Assembly (NCBI GenBank): GCA_001779115.1 | Contig: MFJF01000006.1 | Location: 359 to 39,015 of the forward strand | From: Candidatus Gottesmanbacteria bacterium RIFCSPHIGHO2_01_FULL_40_15 | GTDB taxonomy: Bacteria > Patescibacteriota > Microgenomatia > 2-02-FULL-39-11 | Direction of reading: 5' to 3' | DNA: 38,657 nucleotides | In this document: positions 1-26,911 of the stretch, piece by piece | How positions within the stretch are numbered: position 1 is the stretch's first letter | Layout: every line of letters begins with the position of its first letter | Made by a program: the position numbers and the translations under genes | The notes under the pieces: generated by a model | Database searches by the model: none | What the model saw: the letters and a program-made list of their open reading frames with translations, nothing else | Told to the model about the DNA's origin: nothing

Positions 1-227
1 ATTTGAACGGAAAAAATCCCTTCCAGATAAACGACCAGGCCCTTCTTCGTGCCGTCCAATACCAGTGGTATCTTCAGCAAAAATTCGGCGGTTCCTGGTA
101 TGACTCCGGTCGGGCTGCCTGGGTCAAACATCTGGCCTGGTATTTCTATGGATATAAACCCGTGAGTTATGATCCCTCGGATGCGGGCCGAAACATAGGT
201 TTTACCCAATGGACCCATCAGAAATAA
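1..227 (+). CDS. Alginate-lyase-like protein, C-terminal fragment (cut by left edge)
   Basis: The open frame runs in from the left edge and ends with TAA at 227, so only about 75 C-terminal residues are seen. The TTG at position 3 need not be the true start. The tail aligns by eye with the ends of the two lyase-like proteins at 4721 and 6061: a DQALLRA helix corresponds to DKAILRA, and the final IGFTQWTH corresponds to MGFFEWTH and LGFTGWTH. It is therefore probably a third member of the same family, more divergent than the tandem pair. The missing N-terminus would show whether it also carries a dockerin. Family assignment rests on this short alignment only. Confidence 0.6.
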   Translation, partial: LNGKNPFQINDQALLRAVQYQWYLQQKFGGSWYDSGRAAWVKHLAWYFYGYKPVSYDPSDAGRNIGFTQWTHQK

Positions 228-265: not shown

Positions 266-1399
266 ATGACTCTTTTTATCCGTCTCTTTGCTTTGTTGTT
301 TATAATTATTAATCCCGGTAAAACCCATGCTCAAACCTGTCCAATACCTCCACCGGGCGACGCCAATCAGGACTGCCGGGTTGACGGTCTCGATTATTCC
401 GTCTGGCTTAATAATTATAACCATTCAACAACAAAAGGAGCAGAAAACGGTGATTTCAATAATGACGGATTTGTTGATGGACTTGACTATGTCATCTGGT
501 TCAAAAGTTATAAAGATTTTGAAATTACACCAACAGACAGGACGGATAAAACTTCCCCGACTCCCTCAGAAAATGATATTGCTGTGTGCCTCCGGCCATA
601 TAAAGAAAACAGTCCCTGGAATACCCCGATTGGTCCGAGTCCTAAAATCCACCCCAATTCTGATAAAATCATTTCCGGTCTGCCCGGCTCCTTCGGCCCG
701 GATCCGTTTATATATGCCTATCCTGTATACCATACTGACCGGAAATTAAAACTGAAAAAAATCAAATATACGGGTTATTACCGTTATGTTACGGATGATG
801 AAAGAAGAATTATCACCAATAAAGGAGAAAATTTTCTCGCTCTTCAAATCCCTGATGACGCACTACCTTCAGATGACGGAAATCTGATTATCCTTGATAA
901 AGATTCAGGGGTTGAATGGAATATAACAAAAGCTATAAAAGAAAAAGACGGTTCATGGTCAGTTAAAGACATTTATAAATATAATATCCGTCACAGCGGA
1001 TTTGCCGCCGGTCCTTTCAGCCGGGAAAACGGGACGCCTTTTTTGGCCGGATTAATAAGATCCTGTGAGATAAAAACCGGAATTATTAAGCACGCCATTG
1101 CTTTTTCTTACAAACATCAGAAAAATAATGCTTCCCCTTTCAATATTCCCCGGGGCACCCGTCTTCAACTCGATCCGGACTCATCCGCGGAAAAATTAAA
1201 ATCCTGGTGCGGAAACGATAAAGTTTGCCAAATAATGGTCAATGCTATGCAAAAATACGGTATGTATCCGGTCGGTTTCAGTGATTCTCCGAAAATATTT
1301 GTGGAAAACCAGGGTTCAGCCCGTTGGGAAAATCTTCTGGAAAATACCGTTCTTGGCCGGATTCCCTTCTCTGCCTTTAAAATCGTCATCCCAAAATGA
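266..1399 (+). CDS. Secreted protein with N-terminal dockerin and unknown C-terminal domain
   Basis: The first 23 residues form a signal peptide with a likely cut after THAQ. A two-loop type I-like dockerin follows: calcium loops at about residues 32-43 (DANQDCRVDGLD) and 63-74 (D-x-N-x-D-x3-D-x2-D), each followed by a VW/VIW helix. A short Thr/Pro linker leads to a domain of about 285 residues (95-377) with motifs SPWNTPI, HAIAFSY and GTRLQLDP. I have an impression of similar domains in extracellular bacterial proteins but cannot name a family or an activity. The dockerin implies attachment to the cohesin protein encoded at 7422. The ATG is chosen because a TATAAT lies 7 nt upstream. Confident as a dockerin protein; function of the large domain unknown. 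Confidence 0.85.
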   Translation: MTLFIRLFALLFIIINPGKTHAQTCPIPPPGDANQDCRVDGLDYSVWLNNYNHSTTKGAENGDFNNDGFVDGLDYVIWFKSYKDFEITPTDRTDKTSPTPSENDIAVCLRPYKENSPWNTPIGPSPKIHPNSDKIISGLPGSFGPDPFIYAYPVYHTDRKLKLKKIKYTGYYRYVTDDERRIITNKGENFLALQIPDDALPSDDGNLIILDKDSGVEWNITKAIKEKDGSWSVKDIYKYNIRHSGFAAGPFSRENGTPFLAGLIRSCEIKTGIIKHAIAFSYKHQKNNASPFNIPRGTRLQLDPDSSAEKLKSWCGNDKVCQIMVNAMQKYGMYPVGFSDSPKIFVENQGSARWENLLENTVLGRIPFSAFKIVIPK

Positions 1400-1407
1400 C
1401 TACCACC

Positions 1408-1437
1408 TCCGAGGTGTTATAAGTATAACACCTCGGA
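1408..1437. repeat. Perfect 14-bp inverted repeat (hairpin) after the dockerin gene
   Basis: Arms 1408-1421 and 1424-1437 are perfectly complementary with a 2-nt centre (AG). The hairpin starts 9 nt after the TGA at 1399. No clear T-run follows on the + strand, so it is either a terminator lacking a U-tract, an mRNA 3'-end stabiliser or a protein site. Confidence 0.6.
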
Positions 1438-1467
1438 AAGTAACAAATAAATCTTAATAGTCTCCAT

Positions 1468-1497
1468 TTGCTTTATTATTGCCTATTGGCCTATTAT
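1468..1497 (+). promoter_or_regulatory. Promoter for the phytase gene (leaderless type)
   Basis: TTGCTT (1468-1473), an 18-nt spacer and TATTAT (1492-1497, five of six to consensus) lie 8 nt before the GTG at 1506. This arrangement places the earlier TTG at 1479 upstream of the transcription start, which favours GTG 1506 as the start codon. Confidence 0.4.
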
Positions 1498-1505
1498 TAA
1501 TTTAC

Positions 1506-2819
1506 GTGACCAGAAAATATATTATCTACCTTATCTTAATAGTAGGAAGTCTTTTTCATGTCTTTGCCTCCCCTTCCCTTGCTCAGACCTCTTTTTCTCC
1601 CTCAAAAACATATAAGGATTCAACAGCTTCAAATCAGGACGACATGGCCATCTGGATCCATCCGACAGATAAATCAAAATCTGCGGTTATAGGCTCCGAT
1701 AAAAGCAACGGTAAAGTCTATGTTTATGACCTCTCGGGATCAACCGTTCAGACGGTTACTGATACCGGCGGTCAACCGGGTAATATTGATATCCGTTATA
1801 ATTTCCCCCTTTCCGGTCAACCGGTTGATATTGTCGCTTTCAATGACAGAAGCGGTGACATTATCCGGATATTTAAAATCGATCCCAACTCAAGAACCTT
1901 AACCAGAGTTGATAACGGTTCAATAGCTACTTCTCCTGCTTCAGCCAATTACGGTTTCGGACTTTACTATAACAAAGGCAGTCAGAAATTCTATGCATTC
2001 ACCACCAAAGACGGAGGAGGTCCGATCGTCCAAATAGAACTTAAAGACGCAGGTGGCGGAAAAGTCAGCGGTACAATAGTTAAAAACTGGAATTACTCCA
2101 GCCAGACGGAAGGAATTGTCGGAGATGATGAAAACGGTTTTGTCTTTTTTGCCGAAGAAGGCAAACCGATTCATAAAGTTAATTGCCAGACGGGCATTTG
2201 CGATCCTAATTCATCAGTAACCATTGACGGAGGATTCTTAAATGCGGACGTTGAAGGAATAACTCTTTACCGGACTTCAGATAACAAAGGCTATCTTCTC
2301 TCCTCCAGCCAGGGTGCCAGTGAATTTGAAATTTATGATCGCTTACCTCCGCATGCCCACAAAGGCGTATTTAAAATATCAGGCGCCTCCTCAACTGACG
2401 GCATTGATGTCTCAAGTGTTAATTTAGGATCACTTTTCCCTCAGGGCCTCTTTTTGGTTCACAGCGGCGGTTCGGCAGTTTTAGGTACTCCCTGGCAGAC
2501 AATTGCCAACTCTTTCGGTTTAACAATCAATACTTCCTGGGATCCAAGAGGAAATAGCGGTTCACCTCCGCCTACCGGTACACAACCGACAATCACCAGT
2601 CCTCCACCGTCATTGACAGGCGGCAATCCTATACCGTCTGGTACGGAAAAACCCGGCGACGCCGACGGTGATTATAAAGTTGACGGTCTTGACTATGTCA
2701 TCTGGATGAATAACTATAACCGTTCTACTCTGGCTGGTCCTTCTCTTGGTGATTTTAACAGAAATAATTTCGTCGACGGACTGGACTACGTAATCTGGCT
2801 GAATAATTACAATAAATAA
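1506..2819 (+). CDS. Secreted beta-propeller phytase with C-terminal dockerin
   Basis: This matches the beta-propeller phytase family (3-phytase, PF02333), which releases phosphate from calcium phytate outside the cell. Family signatures are visible in order: DDMAIWIHPTD near the N-terminus, YVYDLSG, NIDIRY, GFGLYY, SQTEGIVGDDE, DVEGITLYR, LSSSQGASEFEIYDR and STDGIDV. A signal peptide precedes the domain with a likely cut after SLAQ. After a Pro/Thr linker a dockerin closes the protein, with loops at about residues 385-396 and 416-427 and the shared VDGLDYVIW pattern. GTG 1506 is preferred over TTG 1479 because it gives a compact signal peptide and fits the promoter spacing. Phytases fused to a dockerin are unusual; with the phosphoesterase at 8312 this points to phosphate scavenging by the same surface complex. 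Confidence 0.92.
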   Translation: MTRKYIIYLILIVGSLFHVFASPSLAQTSFSPSKTYKDSTASNQDDMAIWIHPTDKSKSAVIGSDKSNGKVYVYDLSGSTVQTVTDTGGQPGNIDIRYNFPLSGQPVDIVAFNDRSGDIIRIFKIDPNSRTLTRVDNGSIATSPASANYGFGLYYNKGSQKFYAFTTKDGGGPIVQIELKDAGGGKVSGTIVKNWNYSSQTEGIVGDDENGFVFFAEEGKPIHKVNCQTGICDPNSSVTIDGGFLNADVEGITLYRTSDNKGYLLSSSQGASEFEIYDRLPPHAHKGVFKISGASSTDGIDVSSVNLGSLFPQGLFLVHSGGSAVLGTPWQTIANSFGLTINTSWDPRGNSGSPPPTGTQPTITSPPPSLTGGNPIPSGTEKPGDADGDYKVDGLDYVIWMNNYNRSTLAGPSLGDFNRNNFVDGLDYVIWLNNYNK

Positions 2820-2823
2820 TTTG

Positions 2824-2850
2824 TTTGCCCGCCGTAGCTTAAACTAAGTT
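2824..2850. repeat. Degenerate copy of the CCGCCGAAGCTT hairpin repeat
   Basis: The sequence TTTGCCCGCCGTAGCTT and the following bases match, with several changes, the 26-nt hairpin found twice at 27060-27085 and 27131-27156. The outer arms (CCCGCC and GTTGGG) still pair partly. It sits directly after the phytase stop codon. Confidence 0.45.
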
Positions 2851-2874
2851 GGGATTGAATAACTACAATAAATA
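2851..2874 (+). other. Remnant of a duplicated dockerin gene end, now containing a -10-like box
   Basis: The bases from 2855 read LNNYNK-stop in one frame, repeating the last residues and stop codon of the phytase dockerin that ended at 2819. The copy lies immediately before the next ATG (2875) and supplies a TACAAT (2864-2869) 5 nt upstream of it. It looks like a short duplication or recombination scar between homologous dockerin ends. Confidence 0.45.
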
Positions 2875-4587
2875 ATGTCCGATACCGTTTCCGGAGAATT
2901 CAGGATATCGCTTTCCATCATATCGCTTGCCATAATTACCGTCGGCTTGTTAACAACCTCATATTTAGTGAGAAATAATCAGGATATCCGAAAAAAGGCA
3001 GTCATATCGACCTCACTAACTGTCAGAGTCAGTAAAAATTTTGTATTGCCGGGTGAATCATATAATCTTTACGTTTTCGACCAAAAAAGTCCCCAGCACG
3101 GTTACACCGGTCAATTGGAAGTTCAAACCGGCACCTATACCGGCATCTGGAAAGATTTTTCGGGTAATCCTGTACAAGTTAATAACGGTGTTGCTGTTAT
3201 AAATGTACCATCGGGCACTGCCTCTTTTACGACTCCTTCTGCCAGATTCAGACCTTATCCAAACACTTACGGATTTGATTGGAGCAATGATATTTCACAA
3301 GCGGTGGGAACAACGACTGGTCTTACTGACATGGCCAATTACTATAAAATGCCAACAAGCAACATTTTATTCGAAGGCAAGAATTATACTTACAGTACCC
3401 CGGTTAGTTTTAAAACAGTAATTGGTTTTGAAGGCGCTTCTAATCTCTGCAGTTTAGGCAACGGTCAGGTAATGTATTTTATAAAAGATAAACCAGAAGG
3501 TTATTGGGGACCGAGCTATTCTTGGACAGGAATACAGTCTTCACATAAAAGAAATTTACGCTGGCCTTTAGTGAATTTTACGCAAAAATCAGGCTGGTAT
3601 GATAATTATCTGACAGCATCGGGAGACATTCATTACAACTATAACCCGACAAAACCATTAACTCCTGAATATGGATTTGCCTTAGGTCAAATTGTTTTTC
3701 ACAGATATTATTCAAATAATCCTTCCTTACCGGGCTATTTCTTAACACCAAGATATGTTGGAAAAGGTTGGGGGCACAGCAATGCAAAGCAAAATGCACC
3801 GGCAAGCGCGACTTTAGACTATTGCAGTGTGGGACCAGACCCAAACAGCAATGGAACTTGGGCTGTACACGCCGACCAGATGTCGATTTCCGGCTATAGC
3901 GATACAATTAGACTAAGATATTACGAAGGCGGGGCCGGTTTTCCAACCAACGATAGCGTATCTGTGCTTCGGGAGGACTGGTATTTTGCCAAGAATGTCG
4001 GATTGGTCAGAATTGATGTAAAAAACTTCTGTACTAAATCTACGTCAAATGCATATTGCAAACCTTGTGTTGAAGATCCGGACTGCACTTATGCTGAACA
4101 AATAAGTGCTCCTCACGTCAGATTAACCCGAACCGGTCCCTATGTTATACCAACTAATACACCAGTTCCCCCTCCAGCAACAAAAACTCCTACAAAAACA
4201 CCTTCTCCTCTACCGCCAACCCTTACTCCCACCAAAACCCCTACCAAAACCCCTACCAAAACCCCAACACCAACCAAATCACCTTCTCCCACCAAAACGC
4301 CGACTCCCATTCTTTCAATAACTCCTACCCCTCCTCCCGCATTTACTCCCACGCCAATATTAACATTAACTCCTACACCTTCCTTTACTCCAAGCCCGAC
4401 ACTTACGCCAACTATTGCAGGCAAACCCGGCGACGCCAACGGTGACAACAAAGTAGATGGAATTGACTACATCGTTTGGCTCAACCACTACAATCAAACC
4501 ACCACAAGCGGTCCGCTTCACGGTGATTTCAACAACTCCGGATTCGTCGACGGATTAGATTATATTATCTGGTTGAACAACTACTAA
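2875..4587 (+). CDS. Membrane-anchored PT-rich protein with C-terminal dockerin
   Basis: A single hydrophobic segment at about residues 10-33 anchors the protein or acts as a signal anchor. Residues 40-420 form an extracellular region that I do not recognise, with many Tyr, Asn, Ser and Trp residues as in beta-sheet carbohydrate-active or adhesive domains, and a Cys cluster near 390-410 (FCTK, YCKPC, CTYAE). A linker of about 90 residues of TPTK/TPSP repeats follows. The C-terminus is a dockerin with loops at about 520-531 ([12 protein letters not shown]) and 551-562 ([12 protein letters not shown]). The ATG is set by the TACAAT 5 nt upstream. Docking to the cohesin at 7422 is inferred. No function is assigned to the large domain. 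Confidence 0.8.
4228..4264 (+). repeat. 12-bp tandem repeat coding TPTK in the linker
   Basis: Copies of CCCCTACCAAAA occur head to tail and encode TPTK units. The unit is a multiple of three, so copy-number changes would lengthen or shorten the Pro/Thr linker without a frameshift. Confidence 0.6.
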
Positions 4588-4594
4588 AGAATCA

Positions 4595-4609
4595 GGGACG
4601 GGGGTAGAA
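4595..4609 (+). repeat. GGGACGGGGGTAGAA motif, copy 1
   Basis: This 15-nt G-rich motif starts 8 nt after the TAA of the dockerin gene. An identical copy sits 3 nt after the TAA of the sortase gene at 19892-19906, and the AT-rich bases that follow are also similar (ATTATTGTAA and ATTATTATAA). The shared position just after a stop codon suggests a 3'-end element or a small mobile repeat. Confidence 0.45.
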
Positions 4610-4681
4610 CAGATTATTGTAATAAGCTAAATACTCTCATTTTTTTGGATTTGTCATGATTGGTCCCGAGATTAAACTGCC

Positions 4682-4709
4682 TTGACACAACAATTATTTC
4701 AATTAATAC
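4682..4709 (+). promoter_or_regulatory. Promoter for the lyase-like gene at 4721
   Basis: A consensus -35 TTGACA (4682-4687) is followed after 16 nt by a weak -10 TAATAC (4704-4709), 11 nt before the ATG at 4721. The paralogous gene at 6061 has TTGACA at almost the same distance from its ATG (37 nt against 39). The TTG of this -35 box is therefore unlikely to be a start codon. Confidence 0.45.
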
Positions 4710-4720
4710 TTAAACTGAAT

Positions 4721-6004
4721 ATGTCGGTTGCTGTAATAATTTTTTTTCTTTTCTCATGGCTTTTATCACCGCAACCAACTTTTGCCCAATCCTGTCCCAA
4801 ATCCGATGCCAATAATGACTGCCGGGTAGATGGAACTGACTATATTCCCTGGTTGAATAATTACGGCCAGACAACATCACAGGGCAAAGCTAAAGGCGAC
4901 TTTAACGGTAACGGAGTCGTGGACGGCCTTGATTATGTCCTCTGGTTAAATGAATACGGCCAGACGGGAACTAACATTACTCCCATATCTGGAATTTCTG
5001 TTACACCACCTGTTTCAATCGGAAAAGGTATTTGGCTGTCAAAGGAGGAAATAGCCAAACTACCAACTTCAGGATCAGCCTGGAATAATGTTTTATCTTA
5101 TGCAAATGGATCAGTTAATAACCCAAGCCTTCAATTAAGGGATTATTCATCAGATCATTCCAACGTAAGAACTTATACAAAGGCCCTTGTATATGCCCGG
5201 ACAGGGAATAACACCATGAGGCAGGAAGTCAGAACGATTTTGGAAAAAATTATCGGAACCCATAAGGGAGGAGATGAACTTGCAGTTCTTAGAAATATGT
5301 ATGCATATGTTATTTCTGCGGATTTGATAGATTTGAAAAGTTATGATCCGTCATTTGATACTACCTGGAGGAATTTCATAAGATTAACTTTAACAGAAGG
5401 CTCCGGTGGATCATGTTCCAGTATTATCGAGTGCCATAATAAGCGCCCCAATAACTGGGGAGCCGAAGCCGGGGCATCCCGGGCTGCCATTGCTTTATAT
5501 CTTAACGATTCCGCACAAATAGCCGAAACTGCCCGGGTTCACAAGGGATACTTGGGTGACCGTTCTTCATATGCCGGTTTCCAGTATGGTGAACTTTCCT
5601 GGCAGTGTGATGCCTCTAAACCCGTCGGCATAAATGCCAAAGGCTGTACCAAACAGGGGCATAATATTGACGGTGTCTTGCCTGATGACCAAAGACGCGG
5701 CGGTAGTTTCACCTGGCCGCCTTTTTGTGAAAATTATGTCTGGGGCGCCCTGCAGGGAGCGTTAGTAACCGCAGAGCTCCTGCATCGGGCCGGCTATCCC
5801 GCTTGGGAGTGGCAGGATAAGGCAATTTTAAGGGCAATGGAATGGCTCCACTCACCATCCGTTAAATCAACCAATTGGTGCGCGGCAACAGGCGATGACA
5901 GGGGTTTTCCTTTCCTGGTAAACAGGGCTTATAAAACTAATTTTCCCGCATCAGCTTCTGTTGGAAAAGGCATGGGATTTTTCGAATGGACCCATGCTGA
6001 ATAA
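4721..6004 (+). CDS. Secreted alginate-lyase-like protein with N-terminal dockerin (paralog 1)
   Basis: A hydrophobic signal peptide (residues 1-23, cut after TFAQ) precedes a dockerin with loops at about 29-40 (DANNDCRVDGTD) and 60-71. A linker leads to a catalytic-type domain (about 105-427) resembling the alginate lyase superfamily with an alpha-toroid fold. It has KALVYARTGN, a helix with VLRNMYAYVISADLI, the RPNNWGAEAGASRAAIALYL motif, and then GVLPDDQRRGG and ENYVWGALQGA. In this superfamily the NNW/NNH segment lies in the active cleft; the substrate here cannot be told. ATG 4721 is preferred over TTG 4682 because that TTG belongs to a TTGACA -35 box. It is a tandem duplicate of the gene at 6061 and is presumably displayed on the cohesin anchor. 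Confidence 0.82.
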   Translation: MSVAVIIFFLFSWLLSPQPTFAQSCPKSDANNDCRVDGTDYIPWLNNYGQTTSQGKAKGDFNGNGVVDGLDYVLWLNEYGQTGTNITPISGISVTPPVSIGKGIWLSKEEIAKLPTSGSAWNNVLSYANGSVNNPSLQLRDYSSDHSNVRTYTKALVYARTGNNTMRQEVRTILEKIIGTHKGGDELAVLRNMYAYVISADLIDLKSYDPSFDTTWRNFIRLTLTEGSGGSCSSIIECHNKRPNNWGAEAGASRAAIALYLNDSAQIAETARVHKGYLGDRSSYAGFQYGELSWQCDASKPVGINAKGCTKQGHNIDGVLPDDQRRGGSFTWPPFCENYVWGALQGALVTAELLHRAGYPAWEWQDKAILRAMEWLHSPSVKSTNWCAATGDDRGFPFLVNRAYKTNFPASASVGKGMGFFEWTHAE

Positions 6005-6023
6005 AAATCGTTGTCTTTTCAGT

Positions 6024-6053
6024 TTGACAAATGCAGCCCGGCCATTCAATAAT
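6024..6053 (+). promoter_or_regulatory. Promoter for the lyase-like gene at 6061 (leaderless type)
   Basis: TTGACA (6024-6029), an 18-nt spacer and AATAAT (6048-6053) lie 7 nt before the ATG at 6061. There is no Shine-Dalgarno sequence. This is the clearest leaderless-type promoter in the enzyme cluster. Confidence 0.6.
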
Positions 6054-6060
6054 TGAATAA

Positions 6061-7377
6061 ATGAAAATATTTTTAATTCTTCTTACGGTAAAACTGTTTT
6101 TTGCCGCCCGGCTTCTGTTTCCCGCTCCTCTGACTGCTCAATCATGTCCGATAGCCGATGCCAATGGTGACTGCCAGGTAGACGGTCTGGATTTTAATAT
6201 CTGGCGCAATAATTATGAACAATCAACCAGCCAGGGTAAATTAAAAGGAGATTTTAACAATGACAACATGGTTAACGGGCTTGATTATGTGCTCTGGCTG
6301 AATGATTACGGCTCTTCAGGCAATACAAATCCGCCTCCGACAATAACCTCAAACATAAGTCCGACCGGTTCTCCGGTCCCCGTCACACTCTTCCCTTCAT
6401 CGGACGGAATGTGGCTGTCATCGAAAGAAATAGCTTCGCTGCCTACCTCCGGAACAGCCTGGAATGCGGTTTTATCAGCCGCCAACTCGTCAGTCTCTAC
6501 CCCTAATTTAAATCAAAGGGATAATGACAATACCAATACCTATGCCAAAGCTTTAATCTATGCCAGAACCGGAAATACCAAATATAGGGATGAAGTCCGT
6601 CAGATACTCTCAAAAGTCATGGGAACCGAAAAATCCGCCAACGACGTCCTGGCTGTTCTAAGAAATACTTATGCTTATGTCATTGCCGCGGATTTAATCA
6701 ATCTGAAAAATTTCGACCCCTCATTTAACTCGACATTTACCGGTTGGCTCTCTAAATTAAGAACAAATACTTCAGGCGGATCCTGTAACCATATTATCGA
6801 GTGTCATGAAAAGCGTCCCAATAACTGGGGTGCCAATGCCGCAGCTTCAAGAATTGCTATAGATTTATATATTAACGATAAAACTGATCTTACCAAAGCT
6901 GCCGCCATTCATAAAGGCTGGATGGGTGACCGCTCCTCATACAGCAGTTTTACTTATGGTGATCTGTCCTGGCAATGTGACCCCGGAAAACCGGTCGGTA
7001 TCAATCCCAAAGGCTGTACCAAAAGCGGTTTTACAATTGACGGAGTTCTCCCTGATGACCAAAGGCGTGCCGGCGGATTCACTAACAACCCGCCCTGTGA
7101 AAATTACGTTTGGGGAGCGCTGCAGGGAGCGACTGTGGCTACCCAATTACTGCAACGGGCCGGCTACCCCGCCTGGGACTGGCAGGACAAGGCAATCCTG
7201 AGAGCCGCCCAATGGCTTCATTCATCACAGGTTAAAGGAACTAATTGGTGTGCCGCGTCAGGCGATGATGCCTGGGTGCCTTTCCTTATAAACAAAGTCT
7301 ACGGCACCAGCTTCCCTGGTGATCCGGCCTCAGTCGGTAAAGGCTTGGGCTTTACCGGTTGGACCCATGCTAAATAA
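6061..7377 (+). CDS. Secreted alginate-lyase-like protein with N-terminal dockerin (paralog 2)
   Basis: The layout is that of the gene just upstream: signal peptide to about residue 27 (cut after LTAQ), dockerin loops at 33-44 (DANGDCQVDGLD) and 64-75, a linker, then an alginate-lyase-like domain from about 115. Shared landmarks are ECHEKRPNNWGANAAASR, GVLPDDQRRAGG and ENYVWGALQGA, and the closing GFTGWTH. In the second dockerin loop the residue at position 9 is Asn instead of Asp (DNMVNGLD), which may weaken calcium binding at that loop. The promoter is its own, so the tandem copies are probably not one operon. Differences between the copies across the linker and surface loops suggest divergence in substrate rather than a very recent duplication. 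Confidence 0.83.
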   Translation: MKIFLILLTVKLFFAARLLFPAPLTAQSCPIADANGDCQVDGLDFNIWRNNYEQSTSQGKLKGDFNNDNMVNGLDYVLWLNDYGSSGNTNPPPTITSNISPTGSPVPVTLFPSSDGMWLSSKEIASLPTSGTAWNAVLSAANSSVSTPNLNQRDNDNTNTYAKALIYARTGNTKYRDEVRQILSKVMGTEKSANDVLAVLRNTYAYVIAADLINLKNFDPSFNSTFTGWLSKLRTNTSGGSCNHIIECHEKRPNNWGANAAASRIAIDLYINDKTDLTKAAAIHKGWMGDRSSYSSFTYGDLSWQCDPGKPVGINPKGCTKSGFTIDGVLPDDQRRAGGFTNNPPCENYVWGALQGATVATQLLQRAGYPAWDWQDKAILRAAQWLHSSQVKGTNWCAASGDDAWVPFLINKVYGTSFPGDPASVGKGLGFTGWTHAK

Positions 7378-7421
7378 CTTGATAAATAAACAGATATTTC
7401 TTTAATACTAGATTAGATAAA

Positions 7422-8252
7422 ATGGACCAAATTCCCGATTCTCAATCTGCCAATTCGGAGAAATTAAAATCAACCGTCTCCAATCTTCTCCAAATGGTAA
7501 AAGATTATTCCTCGGAAAATCCCATCTTTTTTCTTTTTATCCTTCTCATGCTGCCGGTCACTCTCTTAACTGTCCAGCAAACGGTAAATTATCTTTCTAA
7601 AGCGCAGGGAACCGATTTGCAATATACTATTACTTTCTCTCCCACTTCACTTTCACTTCCGCCTGATTCGGATTTTAAAATTATTCTTTCTTCCCAAACT
7701 AAAAAAGTCGCATTCGCCCGCGTGGTAGTTAAATATGACCCAACAAAAGTCCGCTTAACCGGAACAATAACAACTAATCCCAACCTCTCAACTGTGGTGG
7801 AGAAAACCGATATGACAACCGCCAATTCACAGGGAAAAGTTGTGATCGTCATTGCCGCTTCACCGACAGATACCCAACCGCAGGGACAGATTGAACTTGC
7901 CTCATTAAGGTTTTCCGCTTCTTCTCAAATAAACGATACGGCAATCATAAGCTTTGACGATCAGGATATGCAGATTGTGGAATCGACAGGAACAGAATTA
8001 TCAGTAAATTCCGTACAGGCTCAAGTAAATCTTAATTCCGGTCAGCAAAACACTTCCAATCCCACACCCACAATTTCCTTATCCGCCAGTCTGCCGGCAG
8101 AGCCTTGTTCAAACAAATCCTCAGCGCACTGTTTCCAACAGTGGAAAAGGGAATATACCGGAGTGGATAATACAAAAAAATCAGATTTGGATAATAACGG
8201 CATGATCGATCTTGTTGACTTCGAAATCTGGCGCCAAGCCGCCTACCCCTAA
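7422..8252 (+). CDS. Membrane-anchored cohesin-domain protein with C-terminal half-dockerin
   Basis: A cytoplasmic N-terminus of about 33 residues is followed by one transmembrane segment (about 34-56), so the rest faces outward. Residues 66-208 look like a type I cohesin-like beta-sandwich: FSPTSLSLPPDSDFKIIL, then the hallmark ARVVVKYDPTKVRLTG near 99-114, and IELASLRFSA followed by ISFDDQDMQIV. After a short Pro/Thr linker come a Cys-containing helix (CFQQWKREY) and one EF-hand-type loop at about 255-266 (DLDNNGMIDLVD), that is, half a dockerin. Its residues 10-11 are LV, not the GL of the neighbouring dockerins. In known systems cohesins bind dockerins with high affinity. Here the single cohesin is the natural membrane receptor for the surrounding dockerin proteins. 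Binding is inferred; the domain call is fairly secure. Confidence 0.82.
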   Translation: MDQIPDSQSANSEKLKSTVSNLLQMVKDYSSENPIFFLFILLMLPVTLLTVQQTVNYLSKAQGTDLQYTITFSPTSLSLPPDSDFKIILSSQTKKVAFARVVVKYDPTKVRLTGTITTNPNLSTVVEKTDMTTANSQGKVVIVIAASPTDTQPQGQIELASLRFSASSQINDTAIISFDDQDMQIVESTGTELSVNSVQAQVNLNSGQQNTSNPTPTISLSASLPAEPCSNKSSAHCFQQWKREYTGVDNTKKSDLDNNGMIDLVDFEIWRQAAYP

Positions 8253-8268
8253 CCAATCGGGGTGTTCC

Positions 8269-8299
8269 TTGTATTTACTGTCATGACAGCCCGTAAAAT
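8269..8299 (+). promoter_or_regulatory. Candidate promoter of the phosphoesterase gene, with a palindrome in the spacer
   Basis: TTGTAT (8269-8274) and TAAAAT (8294-8299, five of six) are 19 nt apart and lie upstream of the ATG at 8312. A perfect 12-bp palindrome, CTGTCATGACAG (8278-8289), fills the spacer, where a bound repressor would block polymerase. Confidence 0.35.
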
Positions 8300-8311
8300 A
8301 AACATCTTTTA

Positions 8312-9487
8312 ATGACAAAATATATTTGGTACTTCAGGAAACTAACCTCACTTATATTACTCACTTTCTTTTTTATTTCACCGCAAAAAACACTGGCTCA
8401 AATTAATCCGATGCCGGTAAAAGTTGCCTTTATCGGTGATTCGGGAGCCGCTTCCGATTTCCAGAAAGTTTTAAATTTAATTAAACAGGAAGGTGCTCAA
8501 ATGGTTCTTCATCAGGGAGATTTTGCTTATGATGACGGCCAATCCAATTGGGAAAATATGATAAACGCCACTCTTGGGGCCAATTTTCCATATTTAGGCT
8601 CCAACGGTAACCATGACAGCTGGTCAAGTTACGCTCCTTTCTTCAAAGACAGGCTTTCAACAATGGGTATGAATGAAAATGCAATATCTACCTCAAATGC
8701 CAGTTATTCTGTAATCTATAAAGATTTAAAACTGGTCTTCAGCAAGGAAAACGGGGATGCGGGTTTTATCCAATCGCAACTTACAGGTGATAATCATACC
8801 TGGAAAATCTGCTCCTGGCACAAAAATATGAATGCCATGCAGGTTGGCGGAAAAAGCGATGAACAGGGATGGGGTGATTATGAAGAGTGCCGGAAAGCCG
8901 GAGCTATTATTGCCACAGCCCATGAACACAGTTACCACCGTACTAAAACATTAACAAGCACTCAGAATCAGACTGTTGACCAAACCTGTGCCAATCCCAA
9001 TAGTGTTTGTGTTTCCCCGGGAAGGACTTTTGTTTTTGTATCGGGACTGGGAGGTAGAAGTATCAGGAATCAGGATCGTTGCCTGCCAACCGGTCCTCCT
9101 TACGGTTGCAAAGGTGAATGGGCTAATATCTACACTTCTGACCAAAATGCCCAGTATGGAGCTTTATTTATCACTTTCAATTATCAAAATGATCCCGTCA
9201 AAGCCCACGCTTATTTTAAAAATATAAGTAACCAGACAATTGACGAGTTTGATATTAAAGCCGGGTTAGGCAATGGAGGTGTCACGGTAACGCCGTATGG
9301 AGACACAATAACTCCCGGAAAACCCGGTGATGCCGATGGAAATGGCCTTGTTGACGGGCTGGACTATGTTATCTGGCTAAATAACTATAATCAGCAGACA
9401 ACAGGAGCAGGCCGTGGTGACTTCAACAACAGCGGCTACGTTGATGGCTTGGATTATGTAATTTGGTTGAATAATTATAATAAGTGA
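8312..9487 (+). CDS. Secreted calcineurin-like metallophosphoesterase with C-terminal dockerin
   Basis: A signal peptide (cut after TLAQ, about residue 30) is followed by a metallophosphoesterase domain (about 36-320). The metal ligands can be read in order: FIGDSG (near 40), HQGDFAY (67-73), SNGNHD (97-102), a His in CSWHKN, and AHEHSYH for the GHxH-type motif. This is the purple acid phosphatase/calcineurin-like superfamily, which hydrolyses phosphomonoesters or diesters with two metal ions. The C-terminus is a dockerin with loops at about 340-351 and 370-381, ending VIWLNNYNK. Together with the phytase at 1506 it suggests that the dockerin complex serves phosphate release. The substrate is not predictable. 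The gene ends just before a convergent gene at 9519. Confidence 0.9.
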   Translation: MTKYIWYFRKLTSLILLTFFFISPQKTLAQINPMPVKVAFIGDSGAASDFQKVLNLIKQEGAQMVLHQGDFAYDDGQSNWENMINATLGANFPYLGSNGNHDSWSSYAPFFKDRLSTMGMNENAISTSNASYSVIYKDLKLVFSKENGDAGFIQSQLTGDNHTWKICSWHKNMNAMQVGGKSDEQGWGDYEECRKAGAIIATAHEHSYHRTKTLTSTQNQTVDQTCANPNSVCVSPGRTFVFVSGLGGRSIRNQDRCLPTGPPYGCKGEWANIYTSDQNAQYGALFITFNYQNDPVKAHAYFKNISNQTIDEFDIKAGLGNGGVTVTPYGDTITPGKPGDADGNGLVDGLDYVIWLNNYNQQTTGAGRGDFNNSGYVDGLDYVIWLNNYNK

Positions 9488-10739: not shown

Positions 10740-11609
10740 ATGGGTTTAATTGAAAGAGATCCCGCTATTACGGGAAGATCATCAATAAGTCGAAATGAGG
10801 CCATAAAAATCATGTTTACTTATACTCTTGCGTTAGTACTGCCGGGTTGTATTCCGGGCACTTTTGAAAGAGAAGAAGCACCAACTCCGGATCCCGCCTC
10901 AAGTCAACCACTGATACCGACCCCGACAGACTCCCCGCCTCCCACTCCTATAATCATCAGAATTGCCTCAACTCCACCTCCAACTCCGTCAAATGAAACT
11001 CTCCAGGAAAACATTAATTACTCTATTGCCGAAAAGTCCGACTGTGACATAGAAGCTGAAATACCGACCCTGGAAGAATTCGCGGGTATATTGAGTGAAA
11101 AATATCGGAATGAAAATCCGCACCAGGTAGTAGGAATTTATTTTAAGGGTAAAACGGAATCAGGGTCAAAAGGTTTTGCCCTGGAAATAGTCCAGCAAAA
11201 AAAAGATTTATATGTTCCGGGTGTCTGCGGTATAGCGGCCCAGTTTGGATTAGCTGCTCGAAATGGTGTTTTGGGAATATTAGCGCATAATTATTTGGAA
11301 GGAAAGGAATTTGAAAGTATTATCCAGCAATCCGAACGGGAAATAGCTGTCTTCACTGCCGAAGGTCGGAAACTTCTTTTTAAAGTCACCTCTGTGGATT
11401 ATTACCAAATGCTTGAGGATGGTGATTATTATTTAAATTTAAATAATGTTAGTAATACAAGTAAAAAAAAGTTATACACCGATAATGAAATTTTTAATAT
11501 TTATTACGGTGAGGCTAATACCGGCAATCTGACTCTTCAAACTTGCCTACAAAAAGGAACAAATAAAATATGGGGGAAAGTTTTTATTGTCGCTGAACCT
11601 TCATACTAG
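10740..11609 (+). CDS. Sortase-like lipoprotein with altered active-site Arg
   Basis: The N-terminus ends in a lipobox (VLPGC, Cys about 37), so the mature protein should be lipid-anchored outside the membrane. A Pro/Thr-rich linker spans about 45-85. The C-terminal half resembles a sortase fold: VLGILAHN with the catalytic His near 183, then a strand-rich stretch, and LTLQTC with the Cys near 269. This closely resembles the LTLQTC of the sortase at 26111. Where that enzyme has KRLIVIA, this one has GKVFIVA, so the transition-state Arg appears to be Lys (about 280). It may be a divergent transpeptidase, a hydrolase or an inactive homolog. No LPxTG-type substrate is seen nearby. Sortase kinship is an inference from motif order and spacing. 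Confidence 0.6.
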   Translation: MGLIERDPAITGRSSISRNEAIKIMFTYTLALVLPGCIPGTFEREEAPTPDPASSQPLIPTPTDSPPPTPIIIRIASTPPPTPSNETLQENINYSIAEKSDCDIEAEIPTLEEFAGILSEKYRNENPHQVVGIYFKGKTESGSKGFALEIVQQKKDLYVPGVCGIAAQFGLAARNGVLGILAHNYLEGKEFESIIQQSEREIAVFTAEGRKLLFKVTSVDYYQMLEDGDYYLNLNNVSNTSKKKLYTDNEIFNIYYGEANTGNLTLQTCLQKGTNKIWGKVFIVAEPSY

Positions 11610-12189: not shown

Positions 12190-12894
12190 TTAATAATTTT
12201 GTATATCCGTTAACAAATCAGCCGTTTTGATATTATGAATCACCATTCCGGGCAGTAAATTCAGGTCATTTTCATTATTTTGAATTATTTTCTTCAAAAC
12301 TTCCCTTTTTTCAGCTCCTGCGGCAACAAAAAGAGCGTAATCCAATAACTTTACCGCTTTTGGAGTTATGGTAATCCTGTGCCGGAATTGTCCCCGGTTT
12401 TTATACCCGACTGCAAATCTGTTTTTATCCCACATCTTTTGGTATCCCGGCAAAAGCCCGGCCGTATGTCCGTCACTCCCAATCCCTAAAACAGCCATAT
12501 GAAAATCGTATTGATTAAACAATTTGCTTAGTTGAGCGGAATAAAAATCAGCCGATTCCGGCAAAGAATTTTCCTGTGGAATACGGTAAAAAGGGATATT
12601 TTTCCCGGTTAAAACAGAAACAATTCCGCTTTCCTTGATCATTTCAAAATTTATTTCCTCCTGCTTGTCCGGTCGAATCCTCTCATCGACCTGTCCAACC
12701 GCCAAATTTTCTGAGTTGAATTGTGACCTTTTTATATATTCTGCCAACCTCGAATAGATATTAACCGAACTACCTCCTGATAAAAGAAGCAGACACCGTT
12801 TTTTCCTGATATTGGTTTTCTTTAATTTGGATAAAAGGCAGTCAGCCGCATCCTGCCAAATTTTATCCTTTGAGGATTTGATCTGATTTAACAT
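12190..12894 (-). CDS. pgl: 6-phosphogluconolactonase / glucosamine-6-phosphate isomerase family protein
   Basis: The 234-residue length and the motifs fit the 6-phosphogluconolactonase (DevB) branch: LLLSGGSS near residue 37, VDERIR near 89, and LGIGSDGHTAGLLPG near 136-150, which carries the GxDGHTA signature seen in lactonases. The enzyme hydrolyses 6-phosphogluconolactone in the oxidative pentose phosphate pathway. Glucosamine-6-phosphate deaminases share the fold but usually lack this exact signature. It lies 16 nt downstream of the CBM96-dockerin gene in a run with glycogen synthase, a setting that suggests sugar-phosphate metabolism. No glucose-6-phosphate dehydrogenase gene is in the window. 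The VDERIR loop is slightly unusual (commonly DERxVP). Confidence 0.8.
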   Translation of the reverse strand: MLNQIKSSKDKIWQDAADCLLSKLKKTNIRKKRCLLLLSGGSSVNIYSRLAEYIKRSQFNSENLAVGQVDERIRPDKQEEINFEMIKESGIVSVLTGKNIPFYRIPQENSLPESADFYSAQLSKLFNQYDFHMAVLGIGSDGHTAGLLPGYQKMWDKNRFAVGYKNRGQFRHRITITPKAVKLLDYALFVAAGAEKREVLKKIIQNNENDLNLLPGMVIHNIKTADLLTDIQNY

Positions 12895-12910: not shown

Positions 12911-14317
12911 TTATTTACCGTAATTATTCAACCAGATAACGTAATCAAGGCCGTCAGTTATACCGTTTCCGTTAAAATCACCGTCCTTATGCCCATTTAC
13001 AGTCTCCTGGTTGTAATGGTTAAGCCAGATAACATAATCTACTCCGTCTACAGCACCATTCTCATTGGCGTCTCCCGGATGAAAATCAATAATCTCAATC
13101 GGAGTAGGAGTAATAGTCAACTCATTACACCATCCTGCCGGAGGCGGATTACAGCCGACAGGTAATGTTGGAACCGGCGTAACCCAGATCGGCTCCGGAA
13201 TATTGCATCCCGTAGGCTTAGGAACACATTGGGTTAAATCACATTGACACCACTCATTGAGAGGACATTCATTATTTCTGCAAAGTCCCGAAGCTCCAAC
13301 AAGTGGTGAAGGATCCAAATTATGACAGATTAATCCTTCCTGACATATAATTTGCGGATTCACGGAATAATTGCATGTCTGATTGCATGCTGCAGGACTG
13401 ATAGTCGGACTGGGTGTCGAAGTGGCAGTCGGAACATTTTCAGGTGGCTGCGTAACACAGACAGTTCCGCAACCTCCGAAACAATCACCGGAACAATAAT
13501 AAATTTCACCGGTATTACAAGCCGGCGGAGTACACATAACGTAAGGAGTCGGTGATTTTGTTGGAGTTATAGTGAACGTTGGAGTAACCGTTAGAGTCGG
13601 AACGTCTGTTGGTGTAATTACCGGTGTTTGTGTAACTGTTGGCGGAACCGGCTCCTCGGCAGTTATACTCGGACTTTCCGTCAACTCCTGTGTCGGAGTC
13701 GGTGTTTCGTAAGTGATAGTCAATATTGGCCGGTTACTTCCTGCTTCTTTTGAAAAAAATCTTACTCCGTCGGTACTGGTCGGAACTAAGGTAAATGAAA
13801 ATAAGCCGTTGCCGGAAATTGCCGAAGTCACATCAATCGTAATTGTCGTATTTATATTTATTGCGCCCAAATCGGCAATCGCATCGCCTGATTTGGCAGG
13901 TTTGTTGTCATAATTTATTCCCGCCTCACTCCAATTATTATCAGCCGCATACACAACCGGTCCTTTATCCGTACCGTTATCATCGCTTGTTAATTTTAAT
14001 TCAGCTTTGGTTACCGTTCCTTCAATACCGGTTATGTTAAACCGCAAAAATCCTTCCCTTAACTGGCTGGAAATACCGTTAACCCGGATCGTTGGTGAAG
14101 AGCCGAAATTTTGGCCCGGAGCTGAAAAATCAACATACGAATCAGCCTCGGACAAAAATAACAAGCTGGTTACGGCCGGACCCTCCGCTTTGGGCAGCAT
14201 TCTTGTTCCAACATCAATCAGCTTTTTTCCGGCAAATATGCCTAAAGTGACAATTCCCAATCCGACCAAAGTCACCAGAATGGCAATGTTTCCCCTCCGG
14301 TTATCTTTAGTTTGCAA
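12911..14317 (-). CDS. Membrane-anchored CBM96-like (DNRLRE) protein with C-terminal dockerin
   Basis: An N-terminal transmembrane segment (about 10-32) is followed by a domain (about 55-205) with the pattern of DNRLRE/CBM96 modules: ADSYVDFSAPGQNFGSSPTI, then FLRFNITGIEG, a repeated AELKL strand, NWSEAGINYDNKP, and RFFSKEAGSNRPILTITY. Such modules bind polysaccharides, including alginate-type chains. A TPT-rich linker and a Cys-rich region (CTPPACNTGEIYYCSGDC and further pairs) lead to a dockerin with loops at about 416-427 (DANENGAVDGVD) and 447-458. The start is TTG at 14317, supported by an AAGGAG 10 nt upstream. It is the only dockerin gene of the window outside the first 9.5 kb and sits in a metabolic gene run. 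Confidence 0.85.
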   Translation of the reverse strand: MQTKDNRRGNIAILVTLVGLGIVTLGIFAGKKLIDVGTRMLPKAEGPAVTSLLFLSEADSYVDFSAPGQNFGSSPTIRVNGISSQLREGFLRFNITGIEGTVTKAELKLTSDDNGTDKGPVVYAADNNWSEAGINYDNKPAKSGDAIADLGAININTTITIDVTSAISGNGLFSFTLVPTSTDGVRFFSKEAGSNRPILTITYETPTPTQELTESPSITAEEPVPPTVTQTPVITPTDVPTLTVTPTFTITPTKSPTPYVMCTPPACNTGEIYYCSGDCFGGCGTVCVTQPPENVPTATSTPSPTISPAACNQTCNYSVNPQIICQEGLICHNLDPSPLVGASGLCRNNECPLNEWCQCDLTQCVPKPTGCNIPEPIWVTPVPTLPVGCNPPPAGWCNELTITPTPIEIIDFHPGDANENGAVDGVDYVIWLNHYNQETVNGHKDGDFNGNGITDGLDYVIWLNNYGK

Positions 14318-19190: not shown

Positions 19191-19889
19191 ATGGCAATCC
19201 ATATGAAAAAAAGCGGAATTATATACGCGCATATTCAGGAAAAACAAAAACTGTCAGTTAATGGTATAAAAATATTTTTTATCTTACTGATAATGTTTTT
19301 TATCTGGACAAACCAAACCCGGATAGCCGGTTCAAAAAATCAGCAGAATAAAAGTATCGTTGCCCGGTTGGTCCGGTTAGCTGTTTCAAATACGCCCACT
19401 CCTTCTCCTACAATTACACCCTCTCCTACTCCCACACCGACACCTGTCTTTCTTCCGTCAAGACTTATTATTGAAAAGTTGGGTATTGATGCGCAAATCG
19501 AGTTTGTGGGAGCCGATGAAAACGGCAAAATGGAAAATCCGTCACAATGGAATACGGTTGGCTGGTATAAAATCGGACCGGTACCGGGTCAACATGGTAA
19601 TTCTGTCATCGCCGGCCATCTTGATACAAATTTGGGTAAACCGGCGGTATTTTATAATTTGGAGAATCTGGAAACTGGGGATATCATTCAGGTTCTGAAA
19701 ATGAACCAAAGCTCAGTTACCTTTCAGGTAACAGGTAAGGAAATTTTTCCATATGACCAGGTACCTGTTGATAACATTTTTATGTCTGATGATAAATCTA
19801 AATTAATTCTCATTACCTGTAATGGCCAATATTTCCGCAATTTAAAAAGCTACTCTCATCGCCTGGCAGTTATATCGGAATTAATCTAA
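19191..19889 (+). CDS. Sortase, class F-like
   Basis: A membrane anchor at about residues 26-40 is followed by a PT-rich linker (68-85) and a sortase domain. The catalytic triad is visible: His 143 in SVIAGHLD, Cys 210 in LILITCNG and Arg 224 in YSHRLAV. The AGHLD motif and the WYKIGPVPGQHGNSVI lead-in are typical of the small actinobacterial-type class F sortases. Such enzymes cut a sorting signal and transfer the protein to a surface nucleophile. No LPxTG-tailed substrate is in the window. An alternative ATG at 19203 is possible, but the promoter fits both. The G-rich repeat at 19892 follows the stop codon. Confidence 0.88.
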   Translation: MAIHMKKSGIIYAHIQEKQKLSVNGIKIFFILLIMFFIWTNQTRIAGSKNQQNKSIVARLVRLAVSNTPTPSPTITPSPTPTPTPVFLPSRLIIEKLGIDAQIEFVGADENGKMENPSQWNTVGWYKIGPVPGQHGNSVIAGHLDTNLGKPAVFYNLENLETGDIIQVLKMNQSSVTFQVTGKEIFPYDQVPVDNIFMSDDKSKLILITCNGQYFRNLKSYSHRLAVISELI

Positions 19890-26110: not shown

Positions 26111-26911
26111 TCACAGGGAAGAAAAGTCCGTAAAATCAGAATTCTTTTCCGCTGTTATCTCATTCAAATTCAGGTCTTTCTCAGGACGGGCTATAACAAT
26201 CAAACGCTTGAAGGTTGTTCCCGGAGGCCAACAAGTCTGCAGAGTCAACTGCTCATAATTTGTCTGTTGTGTGAGATATGAAACATCTGTCGGAGAAACT
26301 ATCATCTTATTTACCACTCTGTAAATATGCCTTTTTCCCTGGAAAATCAGATTGACTTCATCACCTTTCTCCAACTCCTTCAGAAGATAAAAAATCGCAT
26401 TGTATCTGCCGACATTCCAGAAATTATCTGTCGAATGGGCAAAAAGGTATATATTCCCGGTAACTCCGGGAAAAACTGATCCCATGGCATGGGCAACACC
26501 TTGTCTCAAAACCGGCAAATATTCTTTCTTATCGGCGGCATTAATATTGGGAAAAACAGGTGCATTTGCTCCGATTTTAGGAATTACCAGACCGAATTCT
26601 GTTGAAACTGGTGAAATAAATTCCACCTTGTCTCCTCCGCTGATCTGTCCGAAAAATGTAGATTGAGCTTCTTGGATGTTAGGTGTCGGAGTTAACTTTT
26701 CCGGTGCCGTTGGAGGAGAAGCAGGTTCTGCTTTTGCCGGCCGGAAAGTCAGTTCATATCGTACATTTCTGAGTTGATTAACCCGGTATTTGGTTTCAAT
26801 ATATAAAGCCGGTCCGAGAGTTCTGAATATGCCGAAAAGCGATGCTAAAACAAGAAAATTACCGATCGTTCGAAGAATGATAAATTTGATTTTCTCGCGG
26901 TTTATCTTCAC
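26111..26911 (-). CDS. Sortase (class D/E-like)
   Basis: An N-terminal transmembrane segment (about 9-32) and a Pro-rich linker (60-80) precede a sortase domain. The triad is clear: His 159 in YLFAHSTDN, Cys 227 in LTLQTCWPPGT and Arg 236 in KRLIVIA. The LTLQTC and RLIVIA pattern suits class D/E-type housekeeping sortases. The chain extends about 25 residues past the last strand with an acidic tail (DFTDFSSL end). The start is GTG at 26911, with a TAAAAT upstream. It is the second canonical sortase in the window; the LTLQTC stretch is shared with the lipoprotein at 10740. No cognate sorting signal is visible here. Confidence 0.87.
   Translation of the reverse strand: MKINREKIKFIILRTIGNFLVLASLFGIFRTLGPALYIETKYRVNQLRNVRYELTFRPAKAEPASPPTAPEKLTPTPNIQEAQSTFFGQISGGDKVEFISPVSTEFGLVIPKIGANAPVFPNINAADKKEYLPVLRQGVAHAMGSVFPGVTGNIYLFAHSTDNFWNVGRYNAIFYLLKELEKGDEVNLIFQGKRHIYRVVNKMIVSPTDVSYLTQQTNYEQLTLQTCWPPGTTFKRLIVIARPEKDLNLNEITAEKNSDFTDFSSL

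Follow-up and report, generated by a model that had tools for sequence, protein, structure and literature searches.

The window analysed here is a stretch of 38,657 nucleotides, contig C6 of the genome of Candidatus Gottesmanbacteria bacterium RIFCSPHIGHO2_01_FULL_40_15 (1.33 Mb, 32 contigs), a member of the Microgenomates group of the Candidate Phyla Radiation (CPR), and it carries genes for exported proteins with dockerins next to a gene for a membrane-anchored cohesin. The open reading frames at 266-9487 form a run on the + strand that comprises six dockerin genes and one small membrane-protein gene, and a seventh dockerin gene is located on the - strand, 3,424 bp beyond the run (Table 1). 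Most intergenic gaps within the run measure 45-95 bp, so that it looks like one operon, and the cargo proteins have signal-like N-termini. A first-pass annotation made from the sequence alone had described this arrangement, with a phytase, a phosphoesterase, two lyase-like proteins and a CBM96 protein as cargo; open reading frames and Pfam matches confirmed the gene count and Pfam the cargo. Proteins are named below by the lowest position of their gene.

Table 1. Features of the window, with positions counted from its first nucleotide.
Feature	Position	Strand	Evidence
C-terminal piece of a further lyase-like protein, gene broken by a gap near the left end of C6	3..227	+	~75 bp identical to the lyase gene at the end of C29
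Exported protein, N-terminal dockerin (DNA 353-517), cargo family not recognised	266..1399	+	Dockerin_1 2.4e-6, over cut-off
Beta-propeller phytase, C-terminal dockerin (2652-2816)	1479..2819	+	Phytase 3.7e-62; dockerin by own-genome profile
Membrane-targeted protein, family not recognised, P/T-rich linker, C-terminal dockerin (4426-4584)	2875..4587	+	Dockerin_1 4.4e-6
Exported alginate-lyase-like (PF05426) protein, N-terminal dockerin (4799-4963)	4682..6004	+	Alginate_lyase 1.1e-6, Dockerin_1 1.5e-4
Exported alginate-lyase-like protein, N-terminal dockerin (6151-6315)	6061..7377	+	Alginate_lyase 2e-7, Dockerin_1 4e-5
Membrane-anchored predicted cohesin: transmembrane helix aa 33-51, cohesin aa 65-212, C-terminal half-dockerin	7422..8252	+	AlphaFold2, Foldseek, hydropathy
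Predicted cohesin domain of the 7422 protein, of a type that Pfam does not recognise	7614..8057	+	Predicted fold, paralogue homology
Half-dockerin at the C-terminus of the 7422 protein, one EF-hand-like loop	8106..8249	+	Conserved in four anchor proteins
Exported calcineurin-like phosphoesterase, C-terminal dockerin (9323-9484)	8312..9487	+	Metallophos 2.6e-8
Membrane-targeted CBM96 protein, C-terminal dockerin (12914-13078)	12911..14317	-	CBM96 3.5e-30; Dockerin_1 and own profile

Pfam Dockerin_1 (PF00404) matched all seven dockerin proteins of the window. In the whole-protein scan 266, 2875 and 6061 passed the curated gathering cut-off (3/7), 4682 and 12911 lay just below it, and phytase and phosphoesterase matched weakly (E 0.01 and 0.006, respectively); in the genome search five of the seven passed. 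Both calcium-loop repeats of a type I dockerin are present at the sequence level. The genome encodes 16 dockerins of this one kind on three contigs, seven in the window, eight on contig C29 and one on C32, and an own-genome profile found all 16 at E <= 3e-24; as the profile was trained on these same 16 dockerins, the scores reflect their homogeneity and are not independent proof. The mean column identity over 55 aligned columns is 72%, positions 1 and 12 of the calcium loop are D in both loops of all 16 dockerins, and position 9 is D or N, again in 16/16. The recognition positions, G-(L)-D-Y-(V)-(I/V)-W-L-N, are near-identical between the repeats, and because of this likeness the dockerins would, by analogy with clostridial dockerins, permit binding in two orientations. 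The same dockerin type was also seen in a WWE3 metagenome-assembled genome (MAG; UBA1379), with a weaker match in a MAG of the Anaerolineae (L069, L073, L094), which reflects either transfer or wrong binning.

The domain encoded at 7422 gave no match to the cohesin family PF00963 in a single-sequence Pfam scan, and a search of PDB sequences with cohesin profiles (A1, A8) retrieved no cohesin; fold comparison alone did. AlphaFold2, supplied with a 31-sequence alignment, modelled the domain with a predicted local distance difference test score (pLDDT) of ~97 throughout, and the predicted structure is a jelly-roll of the cohesin type. All of the top 50 Foldseek matches in the PDB were cohesins with a probability of 1.00, the best being 6kgc_A (E 1.4e-10); the TM-score was 0.78 on target length, and the matches include 1anu and the Archaeoglobus cohesin 2xdh. 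Besides five close copies of the domain (34-49% identical), the genome contains two distant paralogues, of which C29:17218 (L017) exceeds the PF00963 cut-off. On the basis of the predicted fold and the homology to this paralogue, we assign the 7422 domain to the cohesins, as a putative divergent class outside Pfam. The first-pass annotation had called the domain cohesin-like and had named a failure to score as cohesin as the finding that would speak against it; the domain does fail at the Pfam level, a result that we consider overruled by the predicted fold. The other profile searches that it had proposed were positive, that with PF02333 clearly, that with PF05426 just above cut-off and that with PF00404 in all seven proteins, only part of which passed the cut-off. 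TamB and Cu-oxidase, suggested by weak Pfam matches of the same domain, were dropped given the fold result. Hydropathy places a single membrane helix in front of the cohesin, and an orthologue of the whole protein in genome G008, 47% identical end to end, sits among dockerin genes.

The 7422 protein is not the only anchor, as had first been supposed: at least six cohesins of its type are found in five proteins of the genome, on contigs including C29 and C32, and since nine more dockerin genes and most cohesins are located outside the window, the span originally given to the system was too small. A C32 protein of 945 aa combines CBM96 with two 7422-type cohesins and a different C-terminal dockerin and is, judged by this layout, a putative small scaffoldin; it supplies the scaffoldin with several cohesins that is expected of a cellulosome, two being at the low end. 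One classical cohesin of C32 terminates in an LPRAG-plus-helix tail resembling a sorting signal, and a cohesin-like protein at L019:15560-16399, recognised by eye and by alignment and without a Pfam hit, ends in LPRAG and a membrane helix, similar to a sortase signal.

We then asked how cohesin and dockerin are distributed over 280 genomes of the class, using thresholds of E <= 1e-12 for the cohesin and E <= 1e-15 for the dockerin. The 7422-type cohesin was present in 19/280 genomes, the dockerin type also in 19/280, and 17 genomes had the two together (Fisher p 4e-23). Outside the family to which the window belongs, 13 genomes had the cohesin, 12 the dockerin and 11 both (p 1e-16). Relatedness between genomes inflates these p-values; the pair nonetheless recurs in six families. 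Among the exceptions are G034, whose cohesin lies just past the threshold (7.6e-11), and G001, the genome of which is 85% complete. In 11 of the 17 genomes with both domains, cohesin and dockerin genes are at most 2 kb apart.

The dockerins could instead bind the classical PF00963-type cohesins, the 7422-type being a cohesin-fold module with another role. Such classical cohesins are encoded in the genome itself (C29:17527, C19 and C32) and are common in the class, occurring in 199/280 genomes, a frequency that deprives them of discriminating power. In contrast, the 7422-type cohesin co-occurs with the dockerin far above chance and in adjacent genes, and five genomes (G061, G062, G087, G104 and G120) have the dockerin type and a 7422-type cohesin yet no PF00963 match. 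Together with the docking prediction described next, these observations make an exclusive role of the classical cohesins improbable.

Docking of the two domains was probed in a single chain by AlphaFold2, using a natural fusion from G104 (L112) in which cohesin, linker and dockerin follow one another. Both domains were modelled with pLDDT values of ~93-98, the linker was disordered, and the predicted template modelling score (pTM) was 0.75. According to a simple estimate, pTM should be ~0.75 if the domains are confidently placed relative to each other and ~0.60 if they are not, so the value of the fusion supports a predicted cohesin:dockerin docking and is consistent with the 7422-type cohesin being the partner of the dockerin. 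A Foldseek search with the fusion model returned cohesins as the only matches, as expected for a single-chain comparison. Another fusion, in G232 (L117:7763-8806), joins a cohesin to a dockerin whose motif differs (NLLDYIVLFENFG), and the neighbouring proteins also give weak dockerin hits; this suggests that cohesin and dockerin may shift specificity together.

As to the cargo, the phytase scores 210.9 bits with PF02333 (cut-off 21), matches the Bacillus phytase 3amr with 3.3e-49 and retains the D-x-EG and QTEG segments, which we take to be active-site segments of beta-propeller phytases. The phosphoesterase scores 34.9 bits with PF00149 (cut-off 21.5); phmmer found no relative of it in the PDB, and its motifs GDS, GDF, GNHD, WHK and HEH, presumably the metal-binding motifs of calcineurin-like phosphoesterases, are invariant in three homologues. 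The lyase-like proteins 6061 and 4682 are 65% identical across the lyase region and read NNW where NNH, which we assume to be the alginate lyase motif, is expected. Dockerin-bearing homologues exist for 2875 in G253 (L110; 5e-84) and, distantly, for 266 in G013 (L104:11570-12721). PrgH as an identity of 2875 was discarded, the match covering an N-terminal stretch only and lying far below cut-off. Among the C29 and C32 proteins with a dockerin of this type are a polysaccharide lyase (PF14099, 7.1e-36) and a subtilisin (PF00082, 1.5e-48), together with a phytase-like propeller and one more phosphoesterase. A further dockerin protein, of ~3,260 aa, contains a PQQ propeller and a DUF5060 region (L017:4013-13798).

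The two phosphatase classes of the window, along with two dockerin-bearing paralogues of the same kinds on C29 (L018:7486 and 8807), could point to a dedicated phosphate-scavenging complex with phytase and phosphoesterase at its core and the lyases as helpers, and whenever these enzymes do occur in other genomes they are linked to the system: close phosphoesterase homologues carry a dockerin in 4/4 genomes and the phytase in 2/2. However, the phosphoesterase homologues were found in only 4/280 genomes and PF02333 phytases in 2/95 relatives, so both phosphatases are absent from most genomes that have the cohesin/dockerin system. The dockerin cargo of the relatives comprises sulfatases, GH5/GH39-like hydrolases, lyases, beta-lactamase-fold (serine) hydrolases, PQQ propellers and subtilisins, i.e. 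its nameable part consists mostly of hydrolases of sugars, sulfate esters and peptides. We therefore regard a dedicated phosphate complex as quite improbable. Because of the rarity of both enzymes and the other hydrolases loaded by relatives, phosphate release is a recurring, real but optional cargo and not the organising theme, and while a cohesin/dockerin assembly with two phosphatase classes in a CPR genome is supported, the first-pass view of a locus built around phosphate was abandoned.

We consider it likely that these genes specify some of the components of a cellulosome-like system by which the Gottesmanbacteria cell displays multiple enzymes on its surface. In the mechanism that we infer, exported enzymes, each with one type I dockerin of two near-identical calcium-binding repeats, would plug into cohesins of the divergent class, anchored in the membrane through N-terminal helices. 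These cohesins would be supplied by the 7422 anchor and the C29 and C32 proteins, two of them in tandem on the CBM96-bearing scaffoldin. Anchors and scaffoldin may be linked through their terminal half-dockerin or dockerin to classical cohesins, possibly those of C32, a second tier as in CipA-type cellulosomes that is suggested by the different terminal dockerins of both. Lyases, phosphatases, protease and binding modules would thus be kept at the surface to act on extracellular polymers, and sugars, phosphate and peptides would be freed next to the cell. A bolder version, in which a two-tier membrane-held exo-enzyme machine with its own cohesin/dockerin class is specific to Microgenomates-type CPR and strips the envelope or matrix of a neighbour or host of its polysaccharide, protein and phosphate, phosphate release being a real target in some lineages, appears rather doubtful to us.

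An episymbiotic life is assumed for many CPR cells, and cohesin and dockerin might accordingly hold a coat or host-contact layer in a surface-display or adhesion system, to which enzymes would be incidental. Non-enzymatic cargo is indeed common (FG-GAP and PQQ propellers, CARDB, CBM96), and for anaerobic methanotrophic (ANME) archaea, in which cellulosome components are on record, a use of these domains together with S-layer proteins has been proposed (PMC9012536). The identifiable cargo of the window, however, is dominated by catalytic families with intact motifs, which renders pure display very improbable.

Several points weigh against the cellulosome-like system that we favour. The docking argument is a pTM estimate on the protein of a relative, G104, and the classical cohesins of the genome could take some of the dockerins. 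The largest scaffoldin has two cohesins, and a survey deems systems of this kind unlikely to be conventional cellulosomes (PMC11557425). The alginate-lyase assignment is weak, PF05426 scoring just above cut-off and a PDB search with the lyase-like proteins yielding no solved relative, and several cargoes belong to no recognised family.

With the clostridial cellulosome (CipA, type I/II pairs) the system shares dockerin-bearing exported enzymes, the cohesin fold, surface anchoring and a scaffoldin that carries a carbohydrate-binding module and ends in a different dockerin. In contrast to it, the anchors use membrane helices instead of S-layer homology (SLH) domains, there are at most two 7422-type cohesins per protein, the cohesin sequence lies outside Pfam, and the cargo includes phosphatases, whereas no cellulase family (e.g. 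GH5, GH9, GH48) was found among the dockerin proteins of the genome, several of these having no recognised family and the giant C29 protein having been scanned in part; the relative G034 has GH5 cellulase-type dockerin cargo. The amylosome of Ruminococcus bromii and the mucinolysome of Limousia (PMC12997984) likewise apply the cellulosome principle to another substrate, but they belong to another phylum, and the cargo of the present system, a mixture of lyases, phosphatases and a protease, has no single known substrate. Cellulosome components have been reported in Microgenomates, the group of the window, for Ca. Shapirobacterales (PMC9123182) and, as cited there, for Ca. Roizmanbacterium, and a cellulosome-like system has been described for Ca. 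Stygibacter of the Cloacimonadota (PMC8542988). There too the bacteria are uncultured and have cohesin proteins alongside dockerin enzymes; the reports draw on domain annotations, whereas the cohesin class described here is invisible to Pfam and its pairing was tested across genomes. The non-cellulosomal cohesin of Archaeoglobus fulgidus (2xdh) matches in fold (E 7e-9) and also stands outside classical cellulosomes, but it is 11% identical and part of a separate archaeal system. Among the papers searched, none joins Gottesmanbacteria with dockerin, or dockerin with beta-propeller phytase. The general kind of system is already known; what looks new is the unrecognised cohesin class, its pairing with the dockerin and the cargo of phosphatases.

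The usual picture of CPR bacteria is that of minimal, host-dependent cells; a 1.33 Mb genome with no fewer than 16 dockerin genes, besides several genes for cohesins, devoted to such a system implies active extracellular degradation. Since the standard profile misses this cohesin class, and 5 of the 19 dockerin genomes have no Pfam cohesin, systems of this type are undercounted. The dockerin-borne phytase and phosphoesterase broaden the known cargo of such complexes, and the cohesin-dockerin pair is a candidate module for orthogonal coupling in the design of enzyme assemblies.

The locus may extend beyond the window. C29 and C6 each break inside a lyase-like dockerin gene at an identical stretch of ~75 bp (window 3-227; L018:9967-11103; L021:1-582), and on this assembly-based argument the two contigs probably join, the dockerin locus then running across both for 30 kb or more. 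A scan for promoter-like sites gave 52 against a shuffled mean of 35 and, being non-specific, was not used. The window also contains three sortase-like genes (10740-11609, 19191-19889 and 26111-26911), the first of which, near the dockerin run, matches the NCBIfam model 'sortase_YLP' below the model cut-off. Finally, interspersed with the dockerin genes of the two contigs we noted, reading the sequence by eye, apparent genes for 6-phosphogluconolactonase, 6-phosphogluconate dehydrogenase and glucose-6-phosphate dehydrogenase (window 12190-12894; L017:18069-19999; L018:3-650).

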